From the NCBI GenBank assembly GCA_011033025.1, contig WFMF01000047.1, positions 434,001-498,000 of the forward strand: a stretch of DNA of 64,000 nucleotides. Direction: 5' to 3'. The DNA is from Beroe forskalii. Its lineage: Eukaryota > Ctenophora > Nuda > Beroida > Beroidae. This document shows positions 7,701-52,265 of the stretch, one piece after another; positions within the stretch are counted from its first letter, which is position 1, and every line of letters begins with the position of its first letter. The position numbers were made by a program, and so were the translations under genes. The notes under the pieces are model-generated. The model saw only the letters and a program-made list of their open reading frames with translations, had not been told where the DNA came from and searched no databases.

Positions 7701-10700
7701 AGGGGGCTAGATGGGACTTCCTGCGAGGGAGAATGGGGGTAGAGGATAGTGCGGACATCGGAGGATTTTATGAGCTAAATAGCCGAAATAATTACAGCAT
7801 TCTGAAATTTCTGTAAATGTAATGTTAAAGCAGTAATATGTACAGATGGCGGTCAAGTGCCACGAATTTCAGGAGGCGGTCTCTGACCTCTCTAGACATC
7901 TACGGATGAATACTCACACTCCAATGGGTCCGACCCCGGGGCCCCCGCCCCCGTGGGGGATGCAGAACGTCTTGTGGAGGTTGAGGTGAGACACGTCCGC
8001 ACCGTAGTGACCCGGCTTACACAGGCCAACCTGCAGGGAGAGAGGGTGCGTTACATTCTGATTCACAACAATAATACATGAATGTTGAATGAAGCAAGAT
8101 TTTAACTCGAGCATAAAATGACAACAAGAAACAGACCTTATGTCTGAAAAGGCCAACCTGAGCGTTCATGTTGGCTCCATCCAGATACACCTGACCCCCG
8201 TGACTGTGAATCAGTTCACACAGAGCCCTGGGATGGTTTTATGTTCAGTCGGTTTCAGTATGTTTTGAATTCACAATTTTAACAAAGGGACTTTGATACC
8301 AAGTTCATTACGCACTGAAGTCAAAAATTCCCGCATTGGAAACTTAAAATGGGCTGGAAACCACACCTCCAAATATCATGATCAATGAAAACAAAGCATA
8401 GGATTTACCTGACTCCACTTTCGAATACTCCATACGTAGAAGGATAGGTTATCATGATACAACTCAGGTTGTCCGAATACTTGTCGCACTGAAATAATTG
8501 TAGCATTATCAACTGACTCGTAGGATGCTACCCTCGCGCGCACGGTGCAACGTTCTGTATTGGGACGTCAACATTTGGTGCACTTGTACAACTATCCGCA
8601 TAAGATTGTAGCTATTCGTCATGTCTGATTGGATGCAGAGTGGTGTCAACGTCACAGAGTTGGTATGTGCACGTAACGCTATTCGTCATGCTTGATTGGG
8701 TGCAGAGTGGTGTCAACGTCACAGAGTTGGTACGGCACGTAACGCTATTCGTCATGTCTGGCTGGACGCTGAGTGGTGTCAACGTCACAGAGTTGGTATG
8801 TGCACGTAACTCTATTCGTCATGTCTGATTGGGTACTTAGTGGTGTCAACGTCATAGAGTTGGTATGTGGAATGTGCATACGTCGCTGTTCGTCATCGAT
8901 GACTGAGTGGTGTCAGCCGGCATATATAAAGACCTGCGCTGCAGATCTGGTCATTAGTTCTTTTAATTTCTTGTCTAAGTTGCCTTGTTTTCTTGTCTAG
9001 TCTTGCTTAATTTCGTTGTTAATAATGTGCCGTTGTAAATAAGGTACCGCTGTAAATAAGGTACCGCTGTAAATAAGGTACCGTTGTAAATAAGGTACCG
9101 CTGTAAACAAGGTACCGTTGTTAACGAGGTACCATTGTTAACAAGGTACCGTTGTTAACGAGGTACCGTTGTTAATGAGGTACCGTTGTTAACGAGGTGC
9201 CGTTGTTAACGAGGTACCGTTGTTAACAAGGTACCAAGGTTAACAAGGTACCAAGGTTAACAAGGTACCAAGGTTAACAAGGTACCAAGGTTAACAAGGT
9301 ACCGTTGTTAACGAGGTACCAAGGTTAACAAACGGTACCTTTTCAACAGCGGTATCTTGTTAACGAGGTGCTGTTGTTATAAGGTACCGTTGTAGACAAC
9401 GGCACCTTTTAAATAACGCACCTTGTTAACAACGATACCGTCGTTCACGAGGTACCGTTACCAAAACGGTACCGCTGATAACAAGGTACCGTTGTTAACG
9501 ATCGGAACTGTTGTTAATGTGATCATACGCGTCAAAACTGTGCACATATGTCAGGGGATGCAATGAGAGCCCAAGCACTCTGACCCACCCATGTTTAAAC
9601 TCCTGGAACCCTCCTCCATAATTCATTCAGGCCATCTTTCGGAGGGGCTCTGGCAACACCTGTCAAATCAAGAGTGGGTAGGAGAAGATTGTTCTTTTGG
9701 AACTTGGAAGGTTGGAACTTGGATTGCTAAACACGTATATCCCTGTCTGCGTTGCGCGGCGCGCGCGTACACACACCTATGCGGGCTTAGGAGAGTTCAT
9801 GATTCCGCGGAAGTGGATACAAAGTGGATACAATGGGACAAATTTGGGACAAATCTGGGACATCGGTTTTCTGGCTATATTTACGTTGTTTTCTAACTTT
9901 CAACGGTTCCAAATGGTTTGTAGGATAGTTCCAAAGTATGTCCATCGAATTGTGAGCCAGAATGGCCATTCTGGGCCCCAATATGGCCAAAAAGGCCCAA
10001 AAAAGGCCCAAATTTCAAATTGCTCTAATCGGCCTGGAAACGCTTCAAATCGATTTATTACCATTCTGAGAGGCATTTTACAAAGTTTGTACGAAATTGT
10101 CTCTAAGTGTCCCAAAAACGCTTTCCAAAACGTGGATACAGTCTGGGACAAAAGTGGATACAGATGGGACAAATCTGGGACATCGGTTTTCTGGCTATAT
10201 TTACGTTGTTTTCTGACTTTCAACGGTTCCAAATGGTTTGTAGGATAGTTCCAAAGTATGTCCATAGAATTTTGAGCCAGAATGGCCATTCTGGGCCCAA
10301 AAATGCCCAAAAAGGCCCAAATTTCAAATTGCTCTAATCGGCCTGGAAACGCTTCAAATCGATTTATTACCATTCTGAGAGGCATTTTACAAAGTTTTAC
10401 GGCCAGAAATTGTCTCTAAGTGTCCCAAAAACGCTTTCCAAAACGTGGATACAGTCTGGGACAAAGTGGGGACAAATCTGGGACAACGGTTTTCTGGCTA
10501 TATTTACGTTGTTTTCTGACTTTCAACGGTTCCAAATGGTTTGTAGGATAGTTCCAAAGTATGTCCATAGAATTTTGAGCCAGAATGGCCATTCTGGGCT
10601 CCAATATGGCCAAAAATGCCCAAAAAAGGCCCAAATTTCAAATTGCTCTAATCGGTCTGGAAACGCTTCAAATCGATTTATTACCATTCTGAGAGGCATT

Positions 10701-12807
10701 TTACAAATTTTTACGGCCAGAAATTGTCTCTAAGTGTCCCAAAAACGCTTTCCAAAACGTGGATACAGTCTGGGACAAAAGTGGATACAGATGGGACAAA
10801 TCTGGGACATCGGTTTGGGCCTTTTTTGGGCCTTTTTGGCCATATTGGGGCCCAGAATGGCCATTCTGGCTCAAAATTCGATGGACATACTTTGGAACTA
10901 TCCCACAAACCACTTGGAACCGTTTAAAGTCACAAAACAACGCAAATATAGCCAGAAAACCGATGTCCCAGATTTGTCCCATCTGTATCCACTTTGTCCC
11001 AGACTGTATCCACGTTTTTTTTTGGGACACTTAGGGACAATTTCTGGCCGTAAAACTTTGCAAAATGCCTCTCAGGATGGTAATAAATTGATTTGAAGCG
11101 TTTCCAGACCGATTGGAGCCATTTGAAATTTGGGCCTTTTTGGGGCCTTTTTGGCCATATTGGAGCCCAGAATGGCCATTCTGGCTCAAATTCGATGGAC
11201 ATACTTTGGAACTATCCTACAAACCATTTGGAACTGTTTAAAGTCAGAATACAACGTTAATATAGCCCGAAAACCGATGTCCCAGATTTGTCCCATCTGT
11301 ATCCACTTTTGTCGCAGGCTGTATCCACGTTTTGGAAAGCGCTGGGACACTTAGAGACAATTTCTGGCCATAAAACTTTGTGAAACGCCTCTCAGAATGG
11401 TAATTAATCGATTTAAAGCATTTCCACTTTCCAGACCCATTGGAGGAATTGAAATTTGGGCATTCTGGGCCAAATTGGATCTGGAGTTCCTCAAGACTCT
11501 TCGGACAAATTCCAAATTGGACACATTCTCAAGATCTAGAAGACATAAATTTGGTAAAAACATGTAGCTGGTAGAGACTTATAAATATTATTTTCTTAAG
11601 AAGGTTTTCGCCTGAAATGGTTCTACAATGGGACAAAACGACGGCGCACGCATAAATCGAACTTTTTGCCGCGCCGCGCATTGTCCCAAATCTGTATCCA
11701 CTTCGCGGATTCATCTTCTGGCTTAGGAAGAACTTGGAAGGTTGAGCGTACTAAAGCAATAAATGCCCTGCATTTTACCCGCGGCGCGCGCGCGTTCCCG
11801 CTAAACTGTGTTAACGTTTTTGCATTAGCCATCTTTTTGTTTTCGCGCCATACGATTATTTTTTGGAGAAAATGCTGGATTAAATTCCGATGTCACACAA
11901 TGATGAAGAAATTATAGCGCACAATTACATTACACAATGAATAATGAACAGTGTTGGATTACAATCGTACGGTATTTGCGAAAAAGACTAAGTATGTTTG
12001 TAAGGTGATGTCACCATGAGCAATTTCCTAGTTTATGATGATGAACTACTCAACTAGCCATGCTCACAATGGATAGATTCGACAGACCTTTATCGCACAG
12101 ATGTACCATTGCTTTCACATCACAATATGGAAGAATGTTCCGAAGCTACAATGATTTTCAATACAAAAGATCGAAACTTTAACAATTGAATAACATAAGA
12201 AATGGCAAAGTTTTGTGGTGTCAGTGGAGATTAAACTAAAATGTCTTACCTTGGCTCTGACATCGTCCATATCAATGCTTCCATCAGCAGTGGTCTTGGT
12301 GGTTATGACTGTTAGTCCTGCCATTTGGGCAGAGGCTGGGTTGGTACCATGGGCACTAACAGGCACCTGAACAGAAGGAAAAATGGGACCTAAGTTTTAA
12401 GTTTGTATGGGGAATAGAGTTGAGGGAATATGCCAGTAAAGTGTACATAAAGATACAAAGTATACAGGGTATCCCAATGGAAGCTGGATTACTTCTATCG
12501 TAAGTAAGTTTGCTGATAAGTTAGGATTTAGCTTAAAGGATATCACTGCAAGAAGATGTTGCGTTGGAATGGTCCCTGTATGGAACTCAGGATGAACAGT
12601 TAATCAAAGTCCACGGCACCGCACTGTCGTTATCTGGTACAAAGAGGGGGACGCACTTACCAGGCAGATGTTCCTGTGTCCCTGCCCTATGTCGTGTTGG
12701 TAGGCCCGGATAGCCAGTAATCCAGCATACTCTCCCTGAGCCCCGCTGTTAGGTTGGAAGGAGACTGCGTCGTATCCTGTTATCTCACACAAATCATCGT
12801 GCAGCTC
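1632..12807 (-). CDS. GLDC: Glycine decarboxylase (P-protein), C-terminal ten coding exons
   Basis: PLP-dependent P-protein of the mitochondrial glycine cleavage system: it decarboxylates glycine and passes the aminomethyl group to the lipoyl arm of H-protein. Ten minus-strand exons (12661-12807, 12250-12366, 8409-8488, 8158-8227, 7918-8030, 7537-7720, 7109-7280, 6810-6917, 6467-6612, 1632-1760) join with GT-AG borders and matching phases into 421 codons plus a stop, without frameshift. Diagnostic blocks: [32 protein letters not shown], the PLP-lysine block HLNLHKTFC followed by [51 protein letters not shown] and a C-terminal [12 protein letters not shown]. The family is about 1000 residues long, so roughly the first 590 are missing. 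I found no upstream exons between 12.8 and 30 kb; they may be distant, or this may be a partial copy. Introns carry several mobile elements. Confidence 0.93.
1855..2060. repeat. Minisatellite, GATAGGGTGCATTTGGGATGCA unit
   Basis: About nine imperfect copies of an approximately 22-bp unit with variable spacing, inside the last GLDC intron. No coding function visible. Confidence 0.85.
2283..2527. repeat. Two-copy tandem duplication, about 122 bp
   Basis: Both copies start ATGGTTCTAAT.GTTTCAGATG, contain AATGGCCT.TCACGTGCCTA and end ACGTCAGGAAATCGTATCC. The copies have diverged by substitutions and small indels. Confidence 0.85.
2905..2995. repeat. CTAGT-rich tandem duplication
   Basis: A 47-bp block (AGTGAGTCACTACCTAGTCA, then CTACCTAGTAA.TACTAGCT) is present twice, the two copies differing by one base. 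Confidence 0.85.
3797..3853. repeat. Palindrome
   Basis: Arms of about 25 bp (ATCTTCCA..GTTCACTAACCATGGTC and its complement) around a GCT spacer, with a 2-3 base interruption. It abuts the larger inverted repeat at 3860. Confidence 0.85.
3860..4164. mobile_element. Hairpin (MITE-like) inverted repeat, about 300 bp
   Basis: Left arm (CTTCTCTGCTATTGGTTCAG to GATGAAGTAGAGATA, about 135 bp) and right arm (TATCTCTACTCCATCG to GAACCAATAGCAGAGAAGG) are reverse complements with few mismatches around a loop of about 40 bp. Each arm carries CACGTG-type E-boxes and a CCAAT box. It lies just upstream of a TATA box (4226) serving the plus-strand gene at 4930, so it may act as promoter DNA. No TSD recognised. 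Confidence 0.75.
4226..4233 (+). promoter_or_regulatory. Possible TATA box for the 4930 gene
   Basis: TATATAAG about 30 bp before TCACTCAG, an initiator-like site. Two TCGTTTCAATCA words precede it. This would give a 5' leader of about 670 bp, so either the leader is long or it contains an intron. Confidence 0.35.
4930..5856 (+). CDS. Small two-exon gene nested in the last GLDC intron, function unknown
   Basis: Exon 1 (4930-5243) starts at an ATG after an AT-rich leader. It encodes 104 codons plus two bases and ends at donor GTTAGAG. Exon 2 (5775-5856) follows acceptor CCGTTCAG, restores the frame and ends in TGA. The 131-residue product starts [12 protein letters not shown], is Ser/Asn/Gly-rich, and has a segment [13 protein letters not shown] followed by [15 protein letters not shown] that loosely resembles the UBA-like helix bundle of Regnase-type proteins (inference). 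Its C-terminus is basic ([13 protein letters not shown]), a possible nuclear signal. Exon 1 is clearly more GC-rich than its surroundings. It is antisense to GLDC. A second donor-like GTGAGT directly after the stop leaves open another 3' end. Confidence 0.55.
5355..5408. repeat. Dispersed repeat fragment
   Basis: GATCAATTGAACAATGCGAC and the following TATAACCCCAC..GAGGCAAC recur at 20360-20408. It lies in the intron of the 4930 gene. The rest of 5857-6466 shows no feature apart from a short palindrome at 6390-6420 (CACCGGCTGCCGGGCAGCCGGTG). Confidence 0.6.
6467..6612 (-). CDS. GLDC: GLDC exon
   Basis: 146 bp encoding [15 protein letters not shown] to [13 protein letters not shown]; acceptor TTCCCTGCAG, donor GTGAGT. 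The 4.7-kb intron beyond it contains a plus-strand gene and hairpin elements. Confidence 0.93.
6810..6917 (-). CDS. GLDC: GLDC exon
   Basis: 108 bp encoding [20 protein letters not shown] and [12 protein letters not shown]; acceptor TTTGTGCAG, donor GTAAGTC. Confidence 0.93.
7109..7280 (-). CDS. GLDC: GLDC exon
   Basis: 172 bp encoding [18 protein letters not shown] to AKRLQDYG; acceptor GCACTCAG, donor GTACGTGC. Confidence 0.93.
7537..7720 (-). CDS. GLDC: GLDC exon
   Basis: 184 bp encoding [13 protein letters not shown], then [20 protein letters not shown] and ALRNASE; acceptor CCCTCGCAG, donor GTGGGT. Confidence 0.92.
7918..8030 (-). CDS. GLDC: GLDC exon with PLP lysine
   Basis: 113 bp encoding [20 protein letters not shown] then [17 protein letters not shown]. 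The lysine of HLNLHKTFC is the family's cofactor-binding residue and is intact. Confidence 0.94.
8158..8227 (-). CDS. GLDC: GLDC exon
   Basis: 70 bp encoding [20 protein letters not shown] and NAQ. The donor reads GTTGGCC, and the next exon also starts GTTGGCC, so the splice join is fixed by phase rather than by donor strength. Confidence 0.92.
8409..8488 (-). CDS. GLDC: GLDC exon
   Basis: 80 bp encoding [20 protein letters not shown] and on to ESGV plus two bases of an arginine codon; acceptor TTATTTCAG, donor GTAAATCC. Confidence 0.92.
8600..8925 (+). repeat. 62-bp tandem repeat ending in a TATA box
   Basis: Four to five units of CTATTCGTCATGTCTGATTG, GGTGTCAACGTCA and GAGTTGGTATGTGCACGTAA, then CATATATAAAGACC at about 8923. 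The same words (inverted) with a TATA box occur at 34.35-34.75 and 51.8-52.27 kb, so this is a dispersed promoter-like module. Here it reads into the GGTACC array. Confidence 0.75.
9025..9505. repeat. GGTACC minisatellite, 17-18 bp unit
   Basis: About 27 copies of GTTAACAAGGTACCGTT variants, beginning TAAATAAGGTACCGCTG and drifting to GTTAACGAGG. Each unit contains the palindrome GGTACC and usually GTTAAC. It lies in a GLDC intron. Confidence 0.93.
9793..11720. mobile_element. Foldback element FB1 with 8-bp TSD
   Basis: The ends are inverted: GAGTTCATGATTCCGCGG at the left and the complement of CAGAAGATGAATCCGCG at the right, both followed by AAGTGGATACA. The flanks are identical 8-mers GCTTAGGA (9785-9792 and 11721-11728). 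Inside, direct tandem copies of a 305-325 bp monomer form the left arm (to about 10815), and the same monomer in reverse forms the right arm. About 300 bp next to the right end is non-repeat. No transposase is encoded. It sits in a GLDC intron within an older dispersed repeat. Confidence 0.9.
12250..12366 (-). CDS. GLDC: GLDC exon
   Basis: 39 codons, [14 protein letters not shown] to DDVRAK, phase 0/0; acceptor CTGTTCAG, donor GTAAGACA. The following 3.8-kb intron holds foldback FB1, a GGTACC minisatellite and a 62-bp tandem repeat. Confidence 0.93.
12661..12807 (-). CDS. GLDC: GLDC exon (first in window)
   Basis: 49 codons beginning [13 protein letters not shown] and ending GHRNICL, phase 0 at both ends, donor GTAAGTGC. 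The acceptor GTCGCAG is itself the last partial unit of a tandem repeat that runs on into the intron. Confidence 0.93.
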
Positions 12808-16639: not shown

Positions 16640-17933
16640 GGTGATTGGGTGCAATTGAGTAACTGAGCGCAATGGAGCGAAATTGGGCACAATTGGTCAC
16701 AATTGGATGCAATCGGCTGAAATTTGGCACCACTCAAATGTTTTGCAAATTTGCGCCCATTCGCGATCAAGACCCCCCGAGAAGACCCTCGAAAATGTCT
16801 AATTTATTCTTATAGGGCAAATCTTAATTGACTTTGAGCGCAACTTGTTGCAATTGCAAGCACAATTGGGTGCTATTGGTCGCAATTGAGTGTAATTGGG
16901 CGAAATTGAGTGTAATTGGGCGCAATTATTCTTGAGCGCAATTGGGTGCAATTGTTCTTGAGTGTAATTGGTTGCAATTGTTCTTGAGTGTAATTGAGCG
17001 CAATCGGCGCAATTGAGCGCAATCGGGCTCAATTGAGTGCTATTGGGCGCAAATGAGTGCAATTGGGCGCACATGAGTGCAATTGGGCGCAATCGGGCGC
17101 AATTGAGCGCAATTGGGCAAAATCAAGCACAAAAGGGCGCAATTAGGCGCAATTGAGCGCAATCGGCACAATTGAGTGCGATTGAGCGCAATCAGCACAA
17201 TTGAGTGCGATTGAGCGCAATCAGCACAATTGAGTGCGATTGAGCGCAATCAGCACAATTGAGTGCGATTGAGCGCAATCAGCACAATTGAGTGCGATTG
17301 GGCGCAATCGGGCACAATTGAGCGGCAAGTGTAATTGAGCGTAATTGAGCACAATCAAGCGCAATTGAGCGCCGTTGGGCACAAACGGGGACAATTGAGC
17401 GCGATTGAGAGGCAAGTGTAATTTGGCGCAATTGAGCGCAATTTGGCACAATTTGACGCAATTGAGCGCAATTTGGCGCAATTTGGCGCAGTTGAGCGCA
17501 ATTGTGCGCAATCGGGCGCAATTGAGCGCAATTGTGCACAATCGGGCGCAATTTGGCGCAATTGAGCGCAATTGAGCACAATTTGGCGCAATTGAGCGCA
17601 ATCGGGCACAATTGAGCGCGATCGGGTGCAATCGGCCAATCGGGCACAATTGAGCGCAATTGAATGGCGAGTGGAATTGACCGCAATTGAGCACAATCGA
17701 GCGCAATTGGCCGCAATCGAGCTTGTATTTGTAATTAGGCGCAATCGGGCGCAATCGAGTATTATTAGGCGCAATTCAATTGGGCGCAATCGAGCTGTGT
17801 AATTGGGCGCAATCGAGTGTAATTGGGCGCGATCAAGCGCAATCGCAATTGTGCGCAATCGAGCGCAGTTGCGCGCAATTGAGCGCAATCGGCACAATTG
17901 AGTGCGATTGAGCGCAATCTGAATCAGCACAAT
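16640..17933. repeat. GCGCAATT array, 10-11 bp unit
   Basis: About 120 degenerate copies of GAGCGCAATT / GGGCGCAATC. Long minus-strand frames (QLRSIALNCA-type repeats) are artefacts of the array. The array continues in the same orientation at 22636-22880, on the other side of the giant inverted repeat. Confidence 0.93.
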
Positions 17934-20900
17934 GGGGGTGGCAAGTTATGGGAGCCCCTGTATCCGTTTTGGATACACGGACTTCTCCTAAACCTGGTAT
18001 ACATCATAACAGAGTTAACCACATACCCAGGCTCGCCTACACTTGGGCTAACCTCTAATCACGGGCTCCCTATACACCGCTCCCCTTAATCTTGGGCTTA
18101 CCCACTTCCCTTGGTCTCACCCCTAAACAAGGGATCGCCCATACCAGACTCGCCCCTTATCCTGGGCTATACCGCATATGGCTCCACCCTACCTTGGGCT
18201 TCTGGAATGCCTTGTTAACCCCCAAACACGGGATCAACCATACCAGACCAACCCTTATCCTGGGCTATACCGCATATGGCTCCACCCTACCTTGGGCTTC
18301 GCAATGCCTTGGGCTAACCCCCAAACACGGGATCCACCATACCAGACCAACCCTTATCCTGGGCTATACCGCATGGCTCCACCCTACCTTGGGCTCCCCT
18401 CGCTTTAAATATGGGCTCCCTCCGTTATATTGGGCCACCCCATTCACTCACCCCATGCCCTCTCCCTAGTTTGGGCTCCCCCATGATCAGAACCCGGACT
18501 ACCCCGGCATCATGATAACTCGGGCTCCATCATGGGCCCTCCTGCTAACTCGGGCTACCCCCCTCAGGCTAACTCGGGCTCCCCATACAAACTCGGGCTC
18601 TCCCCATACCAACTCGGGCCCCGTATAAACTCAGGCTCCCCCCGTATAAACTCGGGCTCCCCCATACAACTCGGCTCCCCTATGATAACTCGGGCCCCCA
18701 TAAACTCAGGCTCCCCATACCAAACTTGGGCTCCCGCACTAACTTGGCTCCCCTATGACAAGCATGGGCTCCCCCATACAAACTTGGGCTCCCTGTACAC
18801 CATCGTGGGCCCCCCTGTACCAACTTGGGCCCCTGTACTAACTTGGGCTCCCCCACACTTGGCCCCCCATGCCAACTTGGCTCCCCTGTACTAACTTTGG
18901 GCTCCCCCATACTAACTTGGCCCACCGTACCATCTGGGCCACCCTGCCAACTTGGGCTCCCCCTGTACTATCTGGGCTCCCAGAACCAACTTGGGCTCCC
19001 CGTACTATCTGGGCTCCCCCGTACTAACTCGGGCTCCCCATACCAACTTGGGCTCCCCTGCATTAACTGGGCTCCCCTGCACAAACTTGGGCTCCCGGCC
19101 CCCAAACTTTGGGGCCCCCCGTACAAACGTGGCCCCCTGCAGTCACTTGGGCTCCCCATTACTAACTTTGGGCCCCCACACTTGGGCTCCCCATGCCAAT
19201 CTTGGGCCCCCGCGTATTAACTTGGGCCCCCTTACGTGCCAACTTGGGCTCCACCGTACTATCTGGGCTTCCTCATGCTAACTTGGGCTCCCCCGTTCTA
19301 ACTTGGGCTCCCCCGTACTATCTGGGCTCCCCCACTATTTGGGCTCCCCCATGCCAACTTGGGCTCCCCCTAATAACCTGAGCTCCCCCATACCAACGTG
19401 GGCTCCCCCATACCAACTTGGGTTCCCCCGTACTATCCGGGCTCCCCCAATATGAACTCGGGCTCCCCCATATCAATTCGGGCTCCCCAATACTAATTCG
19501 GGCTCCTCCCGTATAAACTCGGGCTTCCCCATACTAACTCGGGCTCCCCCATACTAACTGGCTCCCCCCGTATTCGGGCTTCCCCCATGATCATAACTTG
19601 GGCTCCCTAATAATATCTCGGGCTCCCCCATGATAACTCGTGTTGCTGCTTTCCAATTTGGGCTTCCCCGTGCTAACTCTGGCTCCTTCATATTAACTAG
19701 GGCTCCCCCATAACCATAACTTGGGCTCCTTTACGAGTTCATGATAACTCGGGCTCCCCGAAGCTCTTTAGGGCTCCCCCATGATAACTTGGTCAGCTAC
19801 ACACTCCAAACCAAAAGACTTCAACGAACAGAGGAGGAGACGGACAGTACAGGAGTGACTTAACATCTACTCATCTCTCCGCTCAGTCTGACGAAACCGG
19901 TATTGTATTGGTAAAGGTATCCTCCTTTCATTAGTCACTCCCTCACACCTCCGTTTGTTTTGTTTAAAACCCGCGGTGGGGTACCCATAAGGGTTTTGAA
20001 ACAGAAATAATTAGTACAATAATAAATTAAACAAAACCACAATCACATAGAGATGCCAATCAAGGCATGTGTCCTTAGTAAATTGTGGCGTGATTGCCAC
20101 TGTTCCAATCTTCACACAGAGAAACCAGCAGTCAAAACAGCAAACATAAAACGTAAAGGCACTCATGACTTGTTCATGTACTCAGGATATGAGCTGGGCG
20201 GAGGATGTTCCGCGAGTTCTTTCCAGCGCGATGCAGGGCGTAGAACTGAGTTTGGGCGTAAAACACTCACCCTAACCCCTCACCGCCCCCCACACTGACT
20301 TGACCTCCCCATATCTATTTGGGCTCCCTGTAATTTGGACTGATCTGAATAAATTCAGATCAATTGAAACAATGCGACTCTTGAGTATAACCCCACTGAA
20401 GCAACCCTGTAATTTACAATCAATTACGCCCATTTTGGGCGTAATGTTAGGTTGTCAGCCAGAATCTGAAAGCCCCCTCATCGCTTCGTCTGCAGAATTG
20501 ATTACATACATTATAAGATTATAGCAATCTCACGACAGGTTTAGACCGAAATAAAGGGTAGTACTATATGATATTTACATGGGATTTTCGACTTGGTTAC
20601 GTTGAAATGAGTTCAAATACGACTGATGCACGTGAAATTAGATCTGATTGCTATATTTCAGCACGTGAGTTCACGTGGATAATTTGTAGAAATTAAGAAA
20701 TATATCAATTCTAGTAATTCCAAGTTAGAATAACTTAGTTTTGGACTTCGTCAGGGTGAGTTATGTGGGTTAGACTTGCGTTCGGGCTAGTAACGAGGGT
20801 TTGGACTACGTGAGGGCAAGTTACGTGGGTCCAAACTGCCTTTGGGCAAGTAACATGGGTTTCAAACTACATACATCTGTCAAGATATCACCACCAACAC

Positions 20901-22637
20901 CGTTGGACGGTTGGTCTAGTAACCCAGATAGTACGGGGGAGCCCAGATAGTACGGGGGAGCCCAAGTTAGAACGGGGGAGCCCAAGTTAGCACGAGGAAG
21001 CCCAGATAGTACGGGGGAGCCCAAGTTAGTATGGGGGAGCCCAAGTTGGTATGGGGGAGCCTACATAGTACGGGGGAGCCCAAGTTGGTATGGAGGGGCC
21101 CAGATAGTACGGGGGAGCCCAAGATGGTTCGGGGAGCCCAAGTTAGTACGGGGGAGCCCAAGTTGGTATGGGAGTATGGGGGAGCCCCGATACTACGGGC
21201 GAGCCCAAGTTGGCATGGGGGAGCCCAAATAGTGGGGGAGCCCAGGTTAGTACGGGGGAGCCCAGATAGTACGGGGGAGCCCAAGTTAGTATGGGGTAGC
21301 CCAGATAGTACGGTGGAGCCCAAGTTGGTATGGGGGAGCCCAAGTTAGTACGGGGAGCCCAAGTTGGCATGGGGGAGCCCAAGTAGTGGGGAGCCTGCGG
21401 GGAGCCCAAGTTAGCATGGGGAGCCCAGATAGTACGGGGAGCCCAAGTTGGTATGGGGAGCCCGAGTTAGTACGGGGAGCCCAGATAGTACGGGGAGCCA
21501 AGTTCGGGGAGCCCAAGTTGGTATGGGGGAGCCCAAGTTAGTACGGGGGAGCCAAGTTGGCATGGGGGAGCCCAAGTAGTGGGGGAGCCCAAGTTAGTAC
21601 GGGGGAGCCCAAGTTAGTACGGGGGAGCCCACGTTTGTACAGGGAGCCCAAGTTTGTATGGGGGAGCCCATGTTTGTACGGGGGAGCCCAAGTTAGTACG
21701 GGGGAGCCCAAGTTGGTATGGGGGAGCCCGAGTTATAATGGGGGAGCCCGAGTTATCATGGGGGAGCCCGAGTTTATACGGGGGAGCCTGAGTTTATACG
21801 GGGGGAGCCCGAGTTAGTATGGGGAGAGCCCGAGTTTGTATGGGGGTGCCCGAGTTAATATGGGGGAGCCTGAGTTAATAAGGGGGGAGCCCGAGTTATT
21901 ACGGGAGGAGCCCAAGTTAGTAGGGGGTAGCCCGAGTTATCATGATGGAGCCCGAGTTAATACGGGGTAGTCCGGGTTCTGATCATGGGGAGCCCAAACT
22001 AGGGGAGAGGGCATGGGGTGAGTGAATGGGGTGGCCCAATATAACGGAGGGGAGCCCATATTTGAAGCGAGGGGGAGCCCAAGGTAGGGTGGAGCCATAT
22101 GCGGTATAGCCCAGGATAAGGGTTGGTCTGGTATGGTGGATCCCGCGTTTGGGGGTTAGCCCAAGGCATTGCAGAAGCCCAAGGTAGGGTGGAGCCATAT
22201 GCGGTATAGCCCAGGATAAGGGTTGGTCTGGTATGGTGGATCCCGTGTTTGGGGTTAGCCCAAGGCATTCCCGAAGCCCAAGGTAGGGTGGAGCCATATG
22301 CGGTATAGCCCAGGATAAGGGTTGGTCTGGTATGGTTGATCCCGTGTTTGGGGGTTAGCCCAAGGCATTCCAGAAGCCCAAGGTAGGGTGGAGCCATATA
22401 CGGTATAGCCCAGGATAAGGGCGAGTCTGGTATGGGCGATCCCTTGTTTAGGGGTGAGACCAAGGGAAGTGGGTAAGCCCAAGATTAAGAGGAGCGGTGT
22501 ATAGGGGAGCCCGTGATTAGAGGTTAGCCCAAGTGTAGGGCGAGCCTGGGTATGGTTAACTCTGTTATGATGTATACCAAGATTAAGGGGAGGCATTTTG
22601 GCTCCCCCATTGTCCGGTATACCAAACTTGCCACCCC
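17934..22637. mobile_element. Giant inverted repeat with minisatellite arms, inserted in the GCGCAATT array
   Basis: The left arm starts GGGGGTGGCAAGTT and the right arm ends AACTTGCCACCCCC. Each arm contains, in mirror order, a roughly 99-bp tandem repeat (TGGGCTATACCGCATATGG..CTACCTTGGGC; about three units left, four right) and then a GGGCTCCCC array of 16-20 bp units (18480-19790 and 20930-22000). The spacer 19800-20925 is non-repeat and has a dispersed fragment at 20360. Flanking GCGCAATT DNA is in direct orientation on both sides. That is the pattern expected of an insertion and not of a palindromic duplication of the whole region. No TSD or transposase found. Confidence 0.75.
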
Positions 22638-22880
22638 CATTGAGTGCGATTGGGCGCAATCGGGCACAATTGAGCGGCAAGTGTAATTGAGCGCAATTGA
22701 GCACAATCAAGCACAATTTAGCGCCGTTGGGCGCAAACGGGGACAATTGAGCGCGATTGAGAGGCAAGTGTAATTGGGCGCAATTGAGCGCAATTTGGCG
22801 CAATTTGGCGCAATTTGGCGCAATTGAGCGCAATTGAGCGCAATTTGGCACAATTTGACGCAATTGAGCGCAATTTGGCT
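22636..22880. repeat. Continuation of GCGCAATT array
   Basis: Matches 17289-17600 nearly base for base in the same orientation (GAGTGCGATTGGGCGCAATC, then GAGCGGCAAGTGTAATTG). Either the array was split by the inverted repeat, with part of the left side duplicated, or part of it moved with the element. Confidence 0.88.
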
Positions 22881-32254: not shown

Positions 32255-35200
32255 GTTGGCATGAACTTGGCATCGATCATTTGCCAACATTTAATTTACC
32301 GTCTTATTCCCTAGTGGTTTAATTATCACACCTTTTGTGTGGCTTCACGAGAATAACCTTAGCGCCAATCACCAGTCTCAAAATCTCCAATGTTTCTGCG
32401 GGATTGGGACAAAATTGGAACAAATATGAGACAAATTCCTGACATATACCAAAGACGTGCGAAATGGTCAAAATTGATATAAAAACCCATCGAGCTTGTT
32501 GTTTAAACATCGTACCAAAAGTTCCTGAAATTCCATTCTACATAATGAGACAAAATGCTGCCATATTTCGAGACGAGCAAAAAACCTTATATTGACCATA
32601 ATGAAGCTTTGAAATTTCAATCTGACTGATTTTTTGTGTTGGAACAAGTTTGGAACAAAATGAGACAAAATCCTGACATATTGCGAAATTGAGACATAAT
32701 GCTGACATATTCCAAGGGCATGAATCGGTAAAGATAATGTAACACATTGAACGTGATATTTTGAGGTTTCAAGTTCAAGTTAGTTGCAGGAAAAACATGT
32801 CAGCATATTGTCTCTTTTTTGTTCCAATTTTACGGAAACATCATATGCTTGAGTGCAATTTATTATGTAGCGCGTAGATGGTTTTGTTGTAAAGACAGCA
32901 TTGTGAAAATCTGGGGTGTGTTGAGAAACACAGCACTTTTGTACATACCGACACTTGACACAATAGCTGCTCGCGCATTTATGCTAGTGAACAAACACGA
33001 AAGGCAGAACACACGGCTTCCTTGACAAGTGATGAGCAGCCCCCCTTCTCCTTCCTAGTAGGCTCACTGTGCCCTTTTTTAATTAATGTACCCTCGGCGG
33101 CTCCTTTTACTCCCACCACACCTTCCTTGACGAGTGATGACCAACCTCCCTACTTCTAACGGTTTCCTTGACGAGTGATGATCATCAGGCTATCAACTTT
33201 TACTGTATGTCTCATGGGGCAGAGGATTTGGTTAGGTCCTTCTAACAGACCCTAGATATACAGCATCACATGTTTCAAAATTGATAGCATGAAGATCATC
33301 CATCGTCAAGGAAGGTGTGGTAGGAGTAGGAGGGGCTGGTCATCACTAGTCAAAGAAGGCGTGGTAGGAGTAGGAGGGGCTGTTAATCACTCGTCAAGGA
33401 AGGTGTGGTAAGAGTAGGAGGGCTGGCCATCACTCGTAGGAGGGGCTGGTCATCACTCGTCAAAGAAGGCGTGGTAGGAGTAGGAGGGGCTGTTAATCAC
33501 TTGTCAAGGAAGGTGTGGTAAGAGTAGGAGGGCTGGCCATCACTCGTCAAGGAAGGTGTGGTGAGAAGGGCTGGTCATCACTCGTCAAGGAAGGCGTAGC
33601 AGGAGTAGGAGGGCTGGTCATCACTCTTCAAGGAAGGAGGGCTGGCCATCAGCCGTCAAGGAAGGCGTGGTAGGAGAAGGAGAGGCTGGTCATCACTCGT
33701 CAAGGAAGGCGTGGTGAGAGGGGCTGGTCATCACTCGTCAAGGAAGGCGTGGTGAGAGGGGCTGGTCATCACTCGTCAAGGAAGGAGGGCTGGTCATCAC
33801 TCGTCAAGGAAGGCGTGGTAGGAGTAGGAGAGGCTGGCCATCACTTGTCAAGGAAGGCGTGGCAGGAGGGGCTGGTCATCACTCGTCAAGGAAGGCGTAG
33901 CAGGAGTAGTAGGGCTGGTCATCACTCGTCAAGGAAGGAGGGCTGGTCATCACTCGTCAAGGAAGGCGTGGTAGGAGAAGGAGAGGCTGGTCATCACTCG
34001 TCAAGGAAGGCGTGGTGAGAGGGGCTGGTCATCACTCGTCAAGGAAGGAGGGCTGGTCATCACTCGTCAAGGAAGGCGTGGTAGGAGTAGGAGAGGCTGG
34101 TCATCACTCGTCAAGGAAGGCGTGGCAGGAGGGGCTGGTCATCACTCGTCAAGGAGACGTAGCAGGAGTAGTAGGGCTGGTCATCACTCGTCAAGGAAGG
34201 AGGGCTGGTCATCACTCGTGAAGGAAGGCGTGGTAGGAGAAGGAGAGGCTGGTCATCACTCGTCAAGGAAGGCGTGGTAGGAGTAGGAGAGGCTGGTCAT
34301 CACTCGTCAAGGAAGGCGTAGTAGGAGTAGGAGCGGTCAACAAATATAATGAATAATGACTCCACCCGCCGTGGGGGGGCTTTATATATGCGTCTGCTGA
34401 CACCCAATCAGACATGACGAATGCGCGCATTCCACATTCCAACCATATGACGTTGACACCATTCGTATGCTATGACGTATGACGTATTTTGATTCGTACA
34501 CATTCCACATTCCATCCCATATGACGTTGACACCATTCGTATGCTATGACGTATGACGTATTTTGATTCGTACACATTCCATCCCATATGACGTTGACAC
34601 CATTCGTATAGTATGACGTATGACGTATTTGATTCATACGCATTCTACATTCCAGCCTTTTTGACGTTGCCACCATTCGTATCCAATGACGTATGAAGAA
34701 TATTGATTTACACGCATTCCACATTCCATCCTATATGACATTGACGGTATAATTGTTACTGTGAGCCTCTAGATTGACAGCAAAATTCCCAATAAAGTAG
34801 ATGTGAAAAGGGTTGACAGGATTATCCACATATGCCATGGCTGAAAAAGGAGGGGGATTGTTATTAAAGAAAAAACTGTCAAAAGAGAGCTATGGGACAG
34901 TAATCGATTCTTCCTAATTGTCCTTCGACCCTATTTTTGATGAATTTATGTTCTGTTTTTGGTGAAACATCAACGGAATTTGCAAAAACGGTCTGAGTTC
35001 ATGATTCCGCGGAAGTGGATACAAAGTGGATACAATGGGACAAATTTGGGACAAATCTGGGACATCGGTTTTCTGGCTAAATTTACGTTGTTTTCTGACT
35101 TTTAACGGTTCCAAATGGTTTGTAGGATAGTTCCAAAGTATGCACATCGAACTTTGAGCCAGAATGGCCATTCCGGGCCCTTAATATGGCCGAAAAAGGC

Positions 35201-38200
35201 CCAAAAAGGCCCAAATTTCAAATTGCTCCTATCGGTCTGGAAACGCTTCAAATCGATTTATTACCATTCTGAGAGGCATTTGACAAAGTTTTACGGCCAG
35301 AAATTGTCTCTGAAGTGTCCCAAAAACGCTTTCCAAAACGTGGATACAGTCTGGGACAAAAGTGTGGATACAGATGGGACAAATCTGGGACATTGGTTTT
35401 CTGGCTATATTTACGTTGTTTTCTGACTTTTAACGGTTCCAAATGGTTTGTAGGATAGTTCCAAAGTATGCACATCGAACTTTGAGCCAGAATGGCCATT
35501 CTGGGCCCCAATATGGCCGAAAAGGCCCAAATTTCAAATTGCTCCAATCGGTCTGGAGACGCTTCAAATCGATTTATTACCATTCTGAGAGGCATTTGAC
35601 AAATTTTTACGGCCAGAAATTGTCTCGAAGTGTCCCAAAACGCTTTCCGAAACGTGGATACAGTCTGGGACAAAAGTGGATACAGATGGGACAAATCTGG
35701 GACATTGGTTTTCTGGCTATATTTACGTTGTTTTCGACTTTTAACGGTTCCAAATGGTTTGTGGATAGTTCCAAAGTATGCACATCGAACTTTGAGCCAG
35801 AATGGCCATTCTGGGCCCCAATATGGCCGAAAAGGCCCAAATTGCTCAATCGGTCTGGAGACGCTGGAATCGATTTATTACCATTCTGAGAGGCATTTGA
35901 CAAATTTTTACGGCCAGAAATTGTCTCGAAGTGTCCCAAAACGCTTTCCGAAACGTGGATACAGTCTGGGACAAAAGTGGATACAGATGGGACAAATCTG
36001 GGACATTGGTTTTCTGGCGAGCTTACGTTGTTTTCTGACTTTTAACGGTTCCAAATGGTTTGTGGATAGTTCCAAAGTATGCCAATCGAATTTTGAGCCG
36101 GAATGGCCATTCTGGTCCCCAATATGGCCGAAAAGGCCCAAAAGGCCCAAATTTCAAATTGCTCCAATCGGTCTGGAAACGCTTCAAATCGATTCATTAC
36201 CATTCTGAGAGGCATTTGACAAAGTTTTACGGCCAGAAATTGTCTCGAAGTGTCCCAAAAACGCTTTCCAAAACAAAACGTGGATACAGTCTGGGACAAA
36301 AGTGGATACAGATGGGACAAATCTTGGACATCGGTTTTCTGGCTCAAAATTCGATGGGCATACTTTGGGACTATCCTTAAAACCATTTGGAACCGTTAAA
36401 AGTCCGAAAACAACGTTAATATAGCCAGAAAACCAATGTCCCAGATTTGTCCCATCTGTATCCACTTTTGTCCCAGACTGTATCCACGTTTCGGAAAGCG
36501 TTTTTGGGACACTTCGAGACAATTTCTGGCCGTAAACTTTGTCAAATGCCTCTCAGAATGGTAATAAATCGATTTGAAGCGTTTCCAGACCGATTGAGCA
36601 ATTTGAAATTTCGGCCTTTTTTGGGCCTTTTTCGTCATATTGGGGCTCAGAATGGCCATTCTGGCTCAAAGTTCGATGGGCATACTTTTGGAACTATCCT
36701 ACAAACCATTTGGAACCGTTAAAAGTCAGAAAACAAACGTAAATATAGCCAAAAAATCAATGTCCCAGATTTGTCCCATCTGTATCCACTTTTGTCCCAG
36801 ACTGTATCCACGTTTCGGAAAGCGTTTTTGGGACACTTCGAGACAATTTCTGGCCGTAAACTTTGTCAAATGCCTCAGAATGGTAATAAATCGATTTGAA
36901 GCGTTTCCAGACCGATTGAGCAATTTGAAATTTCGGCCTTTTTGGCCTTTTTAGCCATATTGGGGGCTCAGAATGGCCATTCTGGCTCAAAGTTCGATGG
37001 GCATACTTTGGAACTATCCTACAAACCATTTTTAAACCGTTAAAAGTCAGAAAACAACGTAAATATAGCCAGAAACCAATGTCCCAGATTTGTCCCATCT
37101 GTATCCACTTTTGTCCCAGACTGTATCCACGTTTGGAATTAAGGTTTTAGGACACTTAGAGACAATTTCTGGCCGTAAAACTTTGTCAAATGCCTCTCAG
37201 AATGGTGATAAATCGATTTGAAGCTTTTCCACTTTCCAGACCTATTGGAGAAATTGAAATTTGGGCATTATGGGTCAAATTGGATCTGGAGTGCCCAGAC
37301 TCTTCGGAACAATTTGAAATAGGACACATTCTCAAGATCTAGAAGACATAAATTTGGTAAAAACATGTAGCTGGTAGAGACTTATAAAATTTCATCTACT
37401 CAAAAAGGTTTCCGGCCGAACTGGTTCTACAATGGGACAAAACGACGGCGCACGCATCAATCGACTTTTTGCCGCGCCGCGCATTGTCCCAAATCTGTAT
37501 CCACTTCGCGGATTCATCTTCTGAACGGTCTTCTTCTAATCCTATTTTGATATGGAAAGACCTGATTTTTAGCGCGCACGTTAGTTCATCTTGCGCGCGA
37601 ACTCGTTTTGTCAATTTGTTACATTCTTTTTATTTACATTAATCCAATTCAAATTTATTTCAGAAACCGCTCCCAGAAATACGCTCTGAGCAATCTCTGG
37701 TGAAGAAACATCTTACTCAAGAGAAGTGGGACCAACTATCTGGAATCAAAACCAAGACGAGCGGATTCACTCTAGAGCAAGCCATTGCAACTGCCATCCA
37801 GTTCGATAACCAACAATGTGGAATTTACGCGGGAGACCACGACTCTTACATAGATTTCGCTCCCCTGTTCGATCTCGTTATCCAGGATTATCATGGAATC
37901 GACGCCAATGCCACTCACACGTCCGATATGGATCCTGAGAAAATCCAGGGCAACGTTCACCCTGACGCCCCCGTCCACTCGGTTAGGATCAGGGTGGGGC
38001 GATCATTCGAGGGATTCGGACTCTCCCCAGGGATCACCAGGGATCAGCGACTGGAGTTGGAGGGGCTCCTCAAGAAGGCTTTCTCCACGTTTACGGGTGA
38101 TCTCGCAGGGGACTACTATCCCCTGCTGGGGATGGAGGAGTCCGTGAGGCAACAACTGGTTGACGACCACTTCCTGTTTGTGTCGGGAGATCCTAATCTT

Positions 38201-38725
38201 ATTGTCGCCGGCATGGAGAGGGACTGGCCTGAAGGCCGGGGAATCTTCCACAACAAGGATAAAACCTTCCTCGTTTGGGTCAACGAGGAGGACCAAACCA
38301 GGATCATCTCAATGCAGAAAGGTGGTGATGTGAAGGCTGTCTTTGAGCGCCTCTCCAGGGCTATTAAGGCTGTTCAGGACAGTGTGAAGGCGGAGTCAGG
38401 CAAGGACTTCCTATTCGATCCCAAGTACGGCTACATCCACTCCTGCCCCACTAACCTGGGCACTGGGATGCGAGCCTCCGTCCACATCGACCTGCCCGGG
38501 TGGACTGCTGAGGGGACGGACGCTCTGCGGGAGCGATGCGAGCAGCTGAAACTCCAGCCCCGGGGAACGCGGGGAGAGTCCGGCGGTCAGACGGGCTGCA
38601 CTTACGACATCTCCAACAAGCACCGGCTGGGGTACTCAGAGGTGGAACTAGTACAGTGTATGATAGATGGAGTTAATACGCTGTTTGCAGAGGACATGGA
38701 ACTCCAGAAGAAACACGCTAAATGA
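32150..38725 (+). CDS. Phosphagen (arginine) kinase, probably mitochondrial, copy A
   Basis: Reversible ATP:guanidino phosphotransferase that buffers cellular ATP. Exon 1 (32150-32254) gives 35 residues (MSWQKLLGSCAAVG...), joined at phase 0 through donor GTTGGC and acceptor TTATTTCAG to exon 2 (37664-38725); total 388 residues. Visible family residues in the precursor: a short guanidino-specificity loop ending CGIYAGD (87-93), SVRIRVGRS, NEED (242-245), reactive Cys296 in SCPTNLGTGMRAS, and RGTRGE with Glu340. The loop length and this glutamate are arginine-kinase traits; the spacing from NEED to the cysteine is creatine-kinase-like. Exon 1 is uncharged at first, with small hydrophobic residues then KMK, and resembles the leader of mitochondrial creatine kinases; that role is inferred. 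The 5.4-kb intron holds a minisatellite and FB2. Confidence 0.82.
32390..32830. repeat. Inverted/direct repeat cluster (GAGACAAAATCCTGACATAT)
   Basis: GGAACAAA.ATGAGACAAA followed by CTGACATAT occurs four times in direct order (about 32420, 32545, 32660, 32690) and once inverted at 32796-32825, which could mark the ends of a small hairpin element in the kinase intron. Confidence 0.6.
33290..34345. repeat. 43-bp minisatellite, copy A
   Basis: About 25 variable units of GCTGGTCATCACTCGTCAAG plus GAAGGCGTGGTAGGAGTAGGAG. Short inverted pieces of the unit precede it at 33110-33185. It lies in the kinase intron. Confidence 0.95.
34346..34745 (-). promoter_or_regulatory. TGACGT-rich tandem repeat with TATA box, copy A
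   Basis: On the minus strand, about four 75-bp units carrying ATGGTGTCAACGTCATATGG and TACGTCATACGTCA lead to CATATATAAAGCCCC at 34379-34393, pointing into the 43-bp minisatellite. The same layout is seen at 8.6-9.0 kb. Promoter activity is inferred from layout only. Confidence 0.5.
34995..37523. mobile_element. Foldback element FB2 with 8-bp TSD and empty site
   Basis: Same termini as FB1 and flanked by AACGGTCT on both sides (34987-34994 and 37524-37531). The allele-like copy at 52643-52655 reads AAAACGGTCTTC without the insert, giving an empty site. The left arm has about four direct monomers, turning over near 36345, and the right arm has them reversed. The unique 300-bp domain lies at the right end. 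It encodes no protein. Confidence 0.93.
37664..38725 (+). CDS. Kinase catalytic exon, copy A
   Basis: One exon carries the whole catalytic core, from KPLPEIRSEQSLVKKHLT to ELQKKHAK. It has no in-frame ATG before the middle of the N-domain, so an upstream exon is required. AATAAA at 39075 is a plausible polyadenylation signal. Confidence 0.95.
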   Translation, partial: KPLPEIRSEQSLVKKHLTQEKWDQLSGIKTKTSGFTLEQAIATAIQFDNQQCGIYAGDHDSYIDFAPLFDLVIQDYHGIDANATHTSDMDPEKIQGNVHPDAPVHSVRIRVGRSFEGFGLSPGITRDQRLELEGLLKKAFSTFTGDLAGDYYPLLGMEESVRQQLVDDHFLFVSGDPNLIVAGMERDWPEGRGIFHNKDKTFLVWVNEEDQTRIISMQKGGDVKAVFERLSRAIKAVQDSVKAESGKDFLFDPKYGYIHSCPTNLGTGMRASVHIDLPGWTAEGTDALRERCEQLKLQPRGTRGESGGQTGCTYDISNKHRLGYSEVELVQCMIDGVNTLFAEDMELQKKHAK

Positions 38726-39321
38726 GCGGAGGAGATATGGTAGTTTTATTGTAACTGACAATTACAAATATTTTGACAGTTCCTCCTTTTGGAGTGGGTC
38801 TTATATAATTCATTTCTTGAAAAAGTCTTTGAGTCTTTGGCTCTCAGTCCATTTTATGACTGATAATTTATAATTTTACGTATTAATGAAAGTGACACAA
38901 CTCTAAGTATGAGCATATATACGTCATTTATAGAAGGTTTTTGTATGTATAGATATCAATATACCAATTACAATAATAACCCATATAAATCCCTTGTAAA
39001 GATGCGAATTTCAGTATTTCGTCAAAACTTTTATGGTGTGCTTAAAACTTTGTTTAACTCCTTCCACAGTTATTAATAAACCCACATGCAAACAAGTTTT
39101 CATACCAACTACCAAATGCAGTCCAATCACTCCTCATTTTCAATTCACATGGATTACCTCTCCTTTGATATCTGACAATTTCAAATAGTAATATTTGATC
39201 ATATTACACTTAAATCCAATCAGAATGGATCAAAGTAAAACTGTAAAAAAGGAATTGTTACCAACATTTATGGTTTTGGCTGCACAAGGGGGGGTGCCAA
39301 CTTATTACCAACCCTGTATTC

Positions 39322-43600: not shown

Positions 43601-44492
43601 CTATTTTCCAATTAAGTCAGAAGATCATTCGAAAAACATTTCAGAATTATAATAACAACACGGCAGAAAACTATACTGGTAGTCTCCCATTGGATGTGCC
43701 TGAACATGAATGACGAATGGGCACCCACAGTAGCTTGAGAAAATATGCTACGGTCGGTCTTGGAACTTTCAAATGAAACAAAACAAAAAACAACGAAGGA
43801 CCAGATTGATTCTCTTAGACATCATAGAAGCATTGACCTCAGTTTACAATTGAAGCCTCGAAGAAGAAAATTCGCACTGATAGCTTAGACTACCAGTTTC
43901 AACGAGTATACCAAAAAGAAATTAAGGAAATACAGTGGAAAAAAACAAAAACACAAATCAAAACACAAACAAAAACACAAATCAACACAGTTTTGGTCGT
44001 CTGTTATTGATTTGAGCTTTATTGCTACGTTAAGTACCTTTATAGCTACGTTAGGTGCCTATTTCTTCTAGAATTCTCATAATGCCCTGGGTTTCTCGTG
44101 AGTTCGCGGCCCATCTTGAAATAGATTGAAGTTGTGGAGGTTTATTTAGATTATGTCCTGGACTTATGGCATTCTTTTATAATTAGTGCACTGTCATGAT
44201 AGGCCTCCTCATTATTATATGTGGCCCTCCTTACTCTCAACACGATCATGACTATCACCTAATAAATGCCTTTTTACGTTGGTTTTCCTAGTATTGGTAT
44301 GTTAACAGCTTCCTATTCGACCAGGAACTCTTTCTCTTGTTCCAGCTTCATCGTAATCAGAGACTGTCTGCCAGTCTAGAGAGTGTGGCGACTCTCCAGG
44401 TATTTGGTTCTCCTTTCCGGCATTGGATAACACTCCTAAAAGTCAACACTGGGCGCAAGACGCAAGAAAAGGGAAGGGAACCGATGTAATGG
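43601..44492. other. Upstream flank of the retrotransposon
   Basis: No endonuclease domain or other ORF is visible, so the retrotransposon is 5'-truncated or its first ORF has been lost. Confidence 0.4.
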
Positions 44493-50493: not shown

Positions 50494-50559
50494 AGAGGAT
50501 TTGGTTAGGTCCTTCTAACAGACCCTAGATATACAGCATCACATGTTTCAAATTGATAG

Positions 50560-51800
50560 CATCGTCAAGGAAGGTGTGGTAGGAGTAGGAGGGCTGGTCA
50601 TCACTCGTCAAGGAAGGCGTGGTAGGAGTAGGAGGGCTGGTCATCACTCGTCAAGGAAGGCGTGGTAGGAGTAGGAGGGCTGGTCATCACTCGTCAAGGA
50701 AGGCGTGGTAGGAGTAGGAGGGCTGGTCATCACTCGTCAAGGAAGGCGTGGTAGGAGTAGGAAAGAAGGGCTGGTCATCACTCGTCAAGAAAGGCGTGGT
50801 AGGAGTAGGAGGGGCTGTTAATCACTCGTCAAGGAAGGCGTAGCAGGAGTAGGGGGGCTGGTCATCACTCGTCAAGGAAGGCGTGGTAGGAGTAGGAGGA
50901 ACTGGTCACCACTCGTCAAGGAAGGCGTGGTAGGAGTAGGGGGCTGGTCATCACTCGTCAAGAAAGGCGTGGTAGGAGGAGGGCTGGTCATCACTCGTCA
51001 AGGAAGGTGTGGTAGGAGTAGGAAAGAGGGCTGGTCATCACTCGTCAAGGAAGGCGTGGTAGGAGTAGGAGGGCTGGTCATCACTCGTCAAGGAAGGCGT
51101 GGTAGGAGTAGGAGGGCTGGTCATCACTCGTCAAGGAAGGCGTGGTAGGAGTAGGAGGGCTGGTCATCACTTGTCAAGGAAGGCGTGGTAGGAGTAGGAA
51201 AGAAGGGCTGGTCATCACTCGTCAAGAAAGGCGTGGTAGGAGTAGGAGGGGCTGTTAATCACTCGTCAAGGAAGGCGTAGCAGGAGTAGGAGGGCTGGTC
51301 ATCACTCGTCAAGGAAGGTGTGGTAGGAGTAGGAGAGGCTGGTCATCACTCGTCAAGGAAGGCGTGGTAGGAGTAGGAGGGCTGGTCATCACTCGTCAAG
51401 GAAGGCGTGGTAGGAGGAGAGACTGGTCATCACTCGTCAAGGAAGGTGTGGTAGGAGTAGGAGAGGCTGGTCATCACTCGTCAAGGAAGGCGTGGTAGGA
51501 GTAGGAGGGCTGGTCATCACTCGTCAAGGAAGGCGTGGTAGGAGGAGAGGCTGGTCATCACTCGTCAAGGAAGGTGTGGTAGGAGTAGGAGGGGCTGGTC
51601 ATCACTCGTCAAGGAAGGCGTGGTAGGAGTAGGAGGGCTGGTCATCACTCGTCAAGGAAGGCGTAGCAGGAGTAGGAGGGCTGGTCATCACTCGTCAAGG
51701 AAGGAGGGCTGGTCATCACTCGTCAAGGAAGGCGTGGTAGGAGTAGGAGAGGCTGGTCATCACTCGTCAAGGAAGGCGTAGTAGGAGTAGGAGCGGTCAA
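50560..51800. repeat. 43-bp minisatellite, copy B
   Basis: About 29 units of the same family as 33290-34345, but more regular, with a higher-order block including GGAAAGAAGGGCTGG repeated about 430 bp apart. Confidence 0.95.
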
Positions 51801-51809
51801 CAAATATAA

Positions 51810-52265
51810 TGAATAATGACTCCACCCGCCGTGGGGGGCTTTATATATGTGTCTGTTGACACCCAATCAGACATGACGAATGCGCGCATTCCACATTCCA
51901 ACCATATGACGTTGACACCATTCATATGCTATGACGTATGACGTATTTTGATTCGTACACATTCCATCCCATATGACGTTGACACCATTCGTATGCTATG
52001 ACGTATGACGTATTTTGATTCGTACACATTCCACATTCCATCCATATGACGTTGACACCATTCGTATGCTATGACGTATGGCGTATTTTGATTCGTACAC
52101 ATTCCATCCATATGACGTTGACACCATCATAGTATAGTATGACGTATGACGTATTTGATTCATACGCATTCTACATTCCAGCATTTATGACGTTGCCACC
52201 ATTCGTTTCCAATGACGTATGAAGAATATTGATTTACACGCATTCCACATTCCATCCCATATGAC
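51810..52265 (-). promoter_or_regulatory. TGACGT-rich tandem repeat with TATA box, copy B
   Basis: Duplicate of 34346-34745 with CATATATAAAGCCCC on the minus strand near 51840 and units ATGACGTTGACACCATTCGT. Confidence 0.5.

Follow-up and report, generated by a model that had tools for sequence, protein, structure and literature searches.

Drosophila FB and sea-urchin TU elements are foldback transposons whose arms are built of tandem repeats. The repeat units are short, 31 bp in FB and 15 bp in TU, and TU has a target-site duplication (TSD) of 8 bp. Foldback elements of both hosts are mentioned briefly in PMC4079207. FB1, an element located in a 64-kb stretch of the Beroe forskalii genome (the whole of which is called the window below), likewise has tandem-repeat arms but differs in unit length. 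Among its closest described counterparts is Tetris of Drosophila virilis, also a non-autonomous foldback element with variable tandem arm repeats, which measure ~220 bp in Tetris (PMC4079207). As described in that paper, the three complete Tetris copies have TSDs of 8-9 bp, a shorter relative, DAIBAM, has the same ends, and a transposase was not found; FB1 likewise has shorter relatives and no transposase found. In Tetris, an outer flanking domain of up to 866 bp precedes the repeats (PMC4079207), whereas the FB1 array, compared by description, begins ~30-50 bp inside the left end. Tm1 of root-knot nematodes resembles FB1 in the asymmetric short motifs outside its inverted part, in its variable tandem arm repeats and in its MITE-like relatives, and its TSD is 8-10 bp (PMC3169594). 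By the same account, Tm1 differs from FB1 in having ~14-bp repeats, most commonly a 9-bp TSD, other terminal letters and known copies with a putative Mutator-like transposase (PMC3169594). Galileo of Drosophila, as reported, shares the long, internally repetitive arms as well as array expansion and contraction, and its repeats contain secondary transposase-binding sites (PMC3573991, PMC3688188); its copies include chimeras with non-matching flanks (PMC3573991). Unlike FB1, Galileo has a 7-bp TSD and a P-superfamily transposase (PMC3573991, PMC3688188).

FB1 spans 1928 bp on the plus strand (9793-11720) and is bounded by two exact, unstranded copies of the 8-bp TSD GCTTAGGA, at 9785-9792 and 11721-11728. 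Inside the left terminus GAGTTCATGATTCCGCGG (9793-9810, plus strand), a forward array (9826-10816, plus strand) contains three full units of 312-313 bp (9826-10137, 10138-10450 and 10452-10764) and a partial one running to ~10816. A reversed array (10811-11511, minus strand) follows, with one full unit (11008-11321) and two partial ones starting from ~10811. With a unit of ~314 bp, the element thus holds ~3.2 forward and then ~2.2 reversed units. To the right of the arrays lie a one-sided domain without array similarity (11512-11703, plus strand) and the right terminus (11704-11720, minus strand), which reads CAGAAGATGAATCCGCG inward. The outermost six bases are not the same at the two ends (GAGTTC on the left, CAGAAG on the right); inside them, both have ATGAWTCCGCG and a AAGTGGATAC stretch in common. 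The inverted arms are 90-95% complementary over stretches of as much as 200 nt, and the predicted single-stranded DNA fold of 10400-11400 is one long hairpin of -465 kcal/mol, a value computed without shuffled controls of this length.

A preliminary description of the window had proposed a foldback whose tandem-repeat arms run forward and then in reverse, flanked by an exact 8-bp TSD and devoid of coding capacity. The arrays, the inverted arms and the two copies of GCTTAGGA agree with it, and coding capacity is absent in any recognisable form: a Pfam scan of all five ORFs of at least 160 codons from the window copies FB1, FB2 and FB3 matched no family. The unique domain that it placed near one end is indeed one-sided; the sequence concerned measures ~190-210 bp (about 11512-11720), not ~300 bp. 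An Rfam scan of the 64-kb window gave no matches. Other tandem arrays are abundant in the window. One of them, at 55200-59396, consists of 26-bp units over 4.2 kb, and those at 16863-19729 recur at 20929-22875 in the opposite sense, which may reflect a large inverted duplication. A reverse-transcriptase ORF (PF00078) of a non-LTR-like element lies at 44490-46238.

The genome (216 Mb in 1134 contigs) was searched with the FB1 ends, using the reversed patterns as control. This search, which the preliminary description had proposed, showed that FB1 belongs to a multicopy family: exact matches to the left 18-mer number 24, against none in the control. At up to two mismatches the 18-mer gave 110 copies (control, three), the 26-base left end at up to three mismatches gave 79 (control, none), and the right 17-mer at up to one mismatch gave 29, 11 of them exact (control, one). 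The family end sequences are GAGTTNATGNNTCC on the left and CNNNAGATGAWTCC on the right, with the right-end variants CAGAAG, CAGTAG and CTATAG among the copies. Three copies fall within the window. FB2 (34995-37523, plus strand) is a second complete copy of 2529 bp with the TSD AACGGTCT at 34987-34994 and 37524-37531, both unstranded; FB3 (47387-49993, minus strand) measures 2607 bp and has an altered right end (CAATAG) and non-matching flanks.

We read the flanks of 19 left-right foldback pairs out of ~110 left ends, namely FB1-3, C157, C166, C203, C211, C220, C267, C392, C414, C440, C508, two each at C529 and C714, C717 and C1002. An exact 8-bp TSD flanks ten of the 19 (FB1, FB2, C157, C166, C211, C267, C414, C440 and both at C529). 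The flanks are identical at seven of eight positions in two pairs (C203 and C392), at six in one (C220) and at five or fewer in six (FB3, C508, C717, C1002, C714b and the 6.1-kb reading of C714a). The TSD therefore differs by at most one base in 12/19 pairs and by more in 7/19; the poorly matching pairs may be chimeric, nested or mis-paired. The preliminary description had asked if the flank matches arose by chance, other copies having no 8-bp TSD or no terminus in common; the ten exact pairs speak otherwise.

Evidence of mobility comes from FB2, whose locus is duplicated within the window (37524-39208 versus 52645-54342, 95.6% identity). The alignment begins at the first base beyond FB2, and when FB2 and one TSD are removed, both loci align through a single AACGGTCT, which in the locus without FB2 stands at 52645-52652 (unstranded) as a paralogous empty site. 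The left flank of FB2 matches the empty locus closely over its last ~20 bases, with several gaps farther out. Because the two loci align through the single AACGGTCT, either FB2 inserted into one duplicate in a single piece, or it excised from the other without trace. The segmental duplication as a whole covers 33221-39208 and 50494-54342, its two members being told apart by the FB2 insertion. The duplicated 1.7 kb (95.6%) surrounds a single-ORF ATP:guanido phosphotransferase gene (37643-38725 and 52772-53854; Pfam PF00217/PF02807).

These observations bear on the view that FB1 is no transposon and that its flanks match by chance. The units do build satellite-like arrays, as a dispersed satellite would, and the window does hold a segmental duplication. 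Fixed termini and exact TSDs nevertheless argue against both forms of this view, the empty site at FB2 contradicts it, and we consider it highly improbable. The FB1 family belongs to the foldback structural class: it has long inverted arms that can pair along most of its length, variable tandem repeats, a TSD and mobility. That FB1 is a non-autonomous, cut-and-paste foldback DNA transposon moved in trans, with arrays that grew as set out below, is an explanation in which we have high confidence.

Forward-then-reversed arrays of varying unit number were found in 13 of 16 copies examined (FB1-3 and ten more); the other three, C508, C714a and C714b, are long and interrupted. Full units number six forward and two reversed in C211 and one of each in C414, and C220 is a 422-bp copy with a single unit. 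Concerted evolution of the units within a copy was considered and found weak: mean identity is 94.4% for units of the same element and arm (56 pairs) and 93.0% for units of the same arm in different elements (422 pairs). Of 44 units from eight copies, 19 have their nearest unit within their own element.

Two related families have the ends, not the unit, in common with the foldback family. The first (GAGTTAATGTTTCCGCGG / CTATAGATGAATCCGCGG) consists of direct arrays of ~315-bp units with no inverted half. Its left-right spacing is 748-769 bp in five cases, and the one copy read (L084, 769 bp) has ends related to those of the foldback and an exact TSD, TGTACGTA. In a longer span at C379, a stretch of 1.2 kb likewise shows same-direction units, along with an unrelated insert. 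The second relative (GAGTTCATGAATCCGCCG), known from its left side and array, has direct units of ~505 bp. A model of the foldback monomer matched neither GAGTTAATGTTTCCGCGG/CTATAGATGAATCCGCGG nor GAGTTCATGAATCCGCCG. In C714a, the left part of a foldback continues into the final 600 bp of the direct-array family; this chimera is flanked on both sides by the exact TSD GGGCGTAG. Since the chimera lies within one exact TSD, one enzyme may pair ends of the foldback and direct-array families.

On the explanation that we prefer, a non-autonomous foldback moved in trans, a transposase made elsewhere would recognise the two asymmetric ends, GAGTTC and CAGAAG, and insert FB1 through an 8-bp staggered cut. 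The arms probably grew out of the left subterminal region, because each unit repeats the end-adjacent motifs GTGGATACA and GGGACAAA. Since the unit repeats these motifs found beside the end, it may, by analogy with Galileo, also carry secondary transposase-binding sites. Tandem expansion and contraction would change the unit number. Because related families combine the same kind of ends with direct arrays, the foldback may have arisen from a direct array by inverted joining.

An autonomous copy, for which the preliminary description had proposed a search, did not emerge: in nine ORFs of candidate spans (longer single ORFs, scanned against Pfam), no transposase was found. C714b (7.9 kb; L080, C714:407940-416211) proved to be a foldback copy broken by an insertion that has inverted GGGATCGTTCACATATTACGTAA ends (GGGATCGTTCACATATTACGTAATCA in L080) and holds a non-LTR retroelement with reverse transcriptase (PF00078) and endonuclease (PF14529). 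C508 (9.7 kb) contains repetitive arrays by eye, and its one scanned ORF matched no family. C714a (6.1 kb) was set aside as it contains the chimera together with a further partial copy. At C247, a left end of the family is not followed by a right end within 4.5 kb, and in the one ORF scanned two families scored, both below the Pfam cut-off. A 243-aa ORF in C221 had no Pfam family match. Two C714 copies, L082 (C714:311600-317900) and L080, lie 90 kb apart in opposite orientation and share GGGCGTAG as their left 8-mer as well as the flank on the right. An inversion reading of the GGGCGTAG flank was dropped, the right partner with GGGCGTAG in one copy being a direct-array end. The data suggest an inverted duplicated locus or a rearrangement, and a duplicated locus is likelier because the right flank is also in common.

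The MULE domain within C267 was likewise rejected as the family's own gene, because the same array pivot stands without a MULE in C211 and because the C267 junctions carry a 9-10-bp duplication (CATTCTGGCC); CATTTTGGCC is present once in C211. The nested MULE-like element lies at the foldback pivot of L085 (C267:84541-88484), at about 760-2955 of the element, and its ends are built of GGACATTTGTCCGACAC repeats.

The TSD of Mutator elements is usually 9 bp, within a range of 8-11 bp; hAT elements have the target consensus nTnnnnAn and terminal inverted repeats starting 5'-YARNG. The preliminary description took the 8-bp TSD of FB1 as pointing to a hAT-like transposase. We do not draw this conclusion, since 8-bp duplications also occur in foldbacks ascribed to Mutator and both bases of the hAT target signature nTnnnnAn are present in only 3/50 insertion sites. 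The duplication length does not decide the superfamily because Tetris, with 8-9 bp in complete copies, and Tm1, with 8-10 bp, are both ascribed to Mutator by their authors (PMC4079207, PMC3169594).

That a hAT transposase specifically mobilises the foldback family is possible but doubtful. The 8-bp TSD fits hAT as it fits other superfamilies, the family right end begins with CAG, and the hAT dimerisation domain has 23 matching places in the genome. Reading ten of these 23 loci gave 11 weak matches to the terminus patterns (3-4 mismatches in 16), compared with a shuffle mean of 3.9 (range 1-7, ten shuffles) and two with reversed patterns. A hAT mover whose termini have diverged may therefore exist. 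However, none of the 11 has fewer than three mismatches in 16, and by position seven of them fall within transposase ORFs. Just two of the 23 places share a contig with any of the at least 192 listed termini, the nearest being 253 kb away. The left end begins with GAG and the fifth bases are T/A, at odds with YARNG.

A Mutator-like (MULE) transposase, as thought for Tetris and predicted for Tm1, is a tentative answer to which we give somewhat less than an even chance. The genome has 46 MULE domain places, the asymmetric outer motifs followed by a shared inverted part are arranged as in Tm1 (PMC3169594), and most foldbacks are ascribed to Mutator in the Tetris paper (PMC4079207). Against this, the foldback TSD is 8 bp, whereas the one measured MULE insertion, at C267, made 9-10 bp, and the only MULE domain within a foldback copy, among the at least 192 listed termini, is that nested element. 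Measured to the same termini, the nearest MULE place is 1.3 kb away (C267) and the next 12.9 kb.

Another superfamily with an 8-bp TSD (Merlin/IS1595, P, KDZ or one not yet described) may supply the enzyme, a possibility that we rate on the doubtful side. There are 35 IS1595-type (Merlin) domain places in the genome, but the nearest is 55 kb from any of the at least 192 listed termini. Searches of the genome with the P (PF21787) and KDZ (PF18758) profiles gave no matches, with the controls also unmatched by both profiles. With the exception of the nested C267 MULE, none of the 23 hAT, 46 MULE and 35 Merlin-type places lies within an element bounded by the at least 192 listed termini. The most likely mover of the foldback family is a Mutator-like or hAT-like transposase, and Mutator has a slight edge, since published foldbacks that combine asymmetric outer motifs with TSDs of 8-10 bp have been placed there.

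The arrangement of neighbouring copies adds a further feature. Seven outward-facing end pairs lie at most 20 bp apart, six among the at least 192 listed ends and the seventh (C1002) among 66 ends read; all are head-to-tail (right-to-left), whereas random orientation predicts half. The spacer is 8 bp at C221:257562-257571, C304:19087-19096, C379:159887-159896 and C769:628421-628430, 9 bp at C581:758460-758470 and C1002:525258, and 14 bp at C529:123838-123853. In an eighth case, C544, a right end abuts a left end missing its outer two bases. At 142-322 bp, four weaker matches (1-2 mismatches) were seen among the 66 ends, one head-to-tail, one right-to-right and two toward the element. Several pairs combine different subfamilies, so the head-to-tail neighbours are not simple dimers. 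The insertion sites, 50 of 53 8-mers after three partner 8-mers were dropped and including a few overlapping readings of one junction, are asymmetric (permutation p ~0.002) and non-uniform by position (p ~0.002), with G at target position 6 in 25/50. The head-to-tail neighbours and the asymmetric insertion sites would both follow if an oriented target were used again. Head-to-tail double insertion has been described as a common event in DNA transposons (McGurk and Barbash 2018, cited by PMC12368964).

A more far-reaching proposal is that all elements with the ~18-bp ends, whether single-unit, direct-array or foldback, are moved by a single transposase, which may belong to a superfamily not yet described. 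This enzyme would recognise arrays of its own binding unit amplified from the left end and would always use the 8-bp target in one orientation; the duplicated target of a resident element would then serve again, and copies would accumulate head-to-tail at 8-bp spacing. We regard this proposal as unlikely. The reading that we retain is the non-autonomous foldback moved in trans.

The FB1 family is new and of a known structural kind, the foldback; it is set apart from Tetris by description, not by sequence. The preliminary description knew of no family on record that has these termini. A full-text search of papers, with Repbase and sequence files outside its scope, found none with the left 18-mer, which is weak evidence in favour of that statement. 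The finding also calls for caution, since an 8-bp TSD does not by itself identify hAT. In one genome, single-unit, direct-array and foldback elements have a terminal signature in common, together with an empty site and a chimera. Because this genome holds all three forms, the growth of foldback arms and transposon-borne satellites are open to comparative study.
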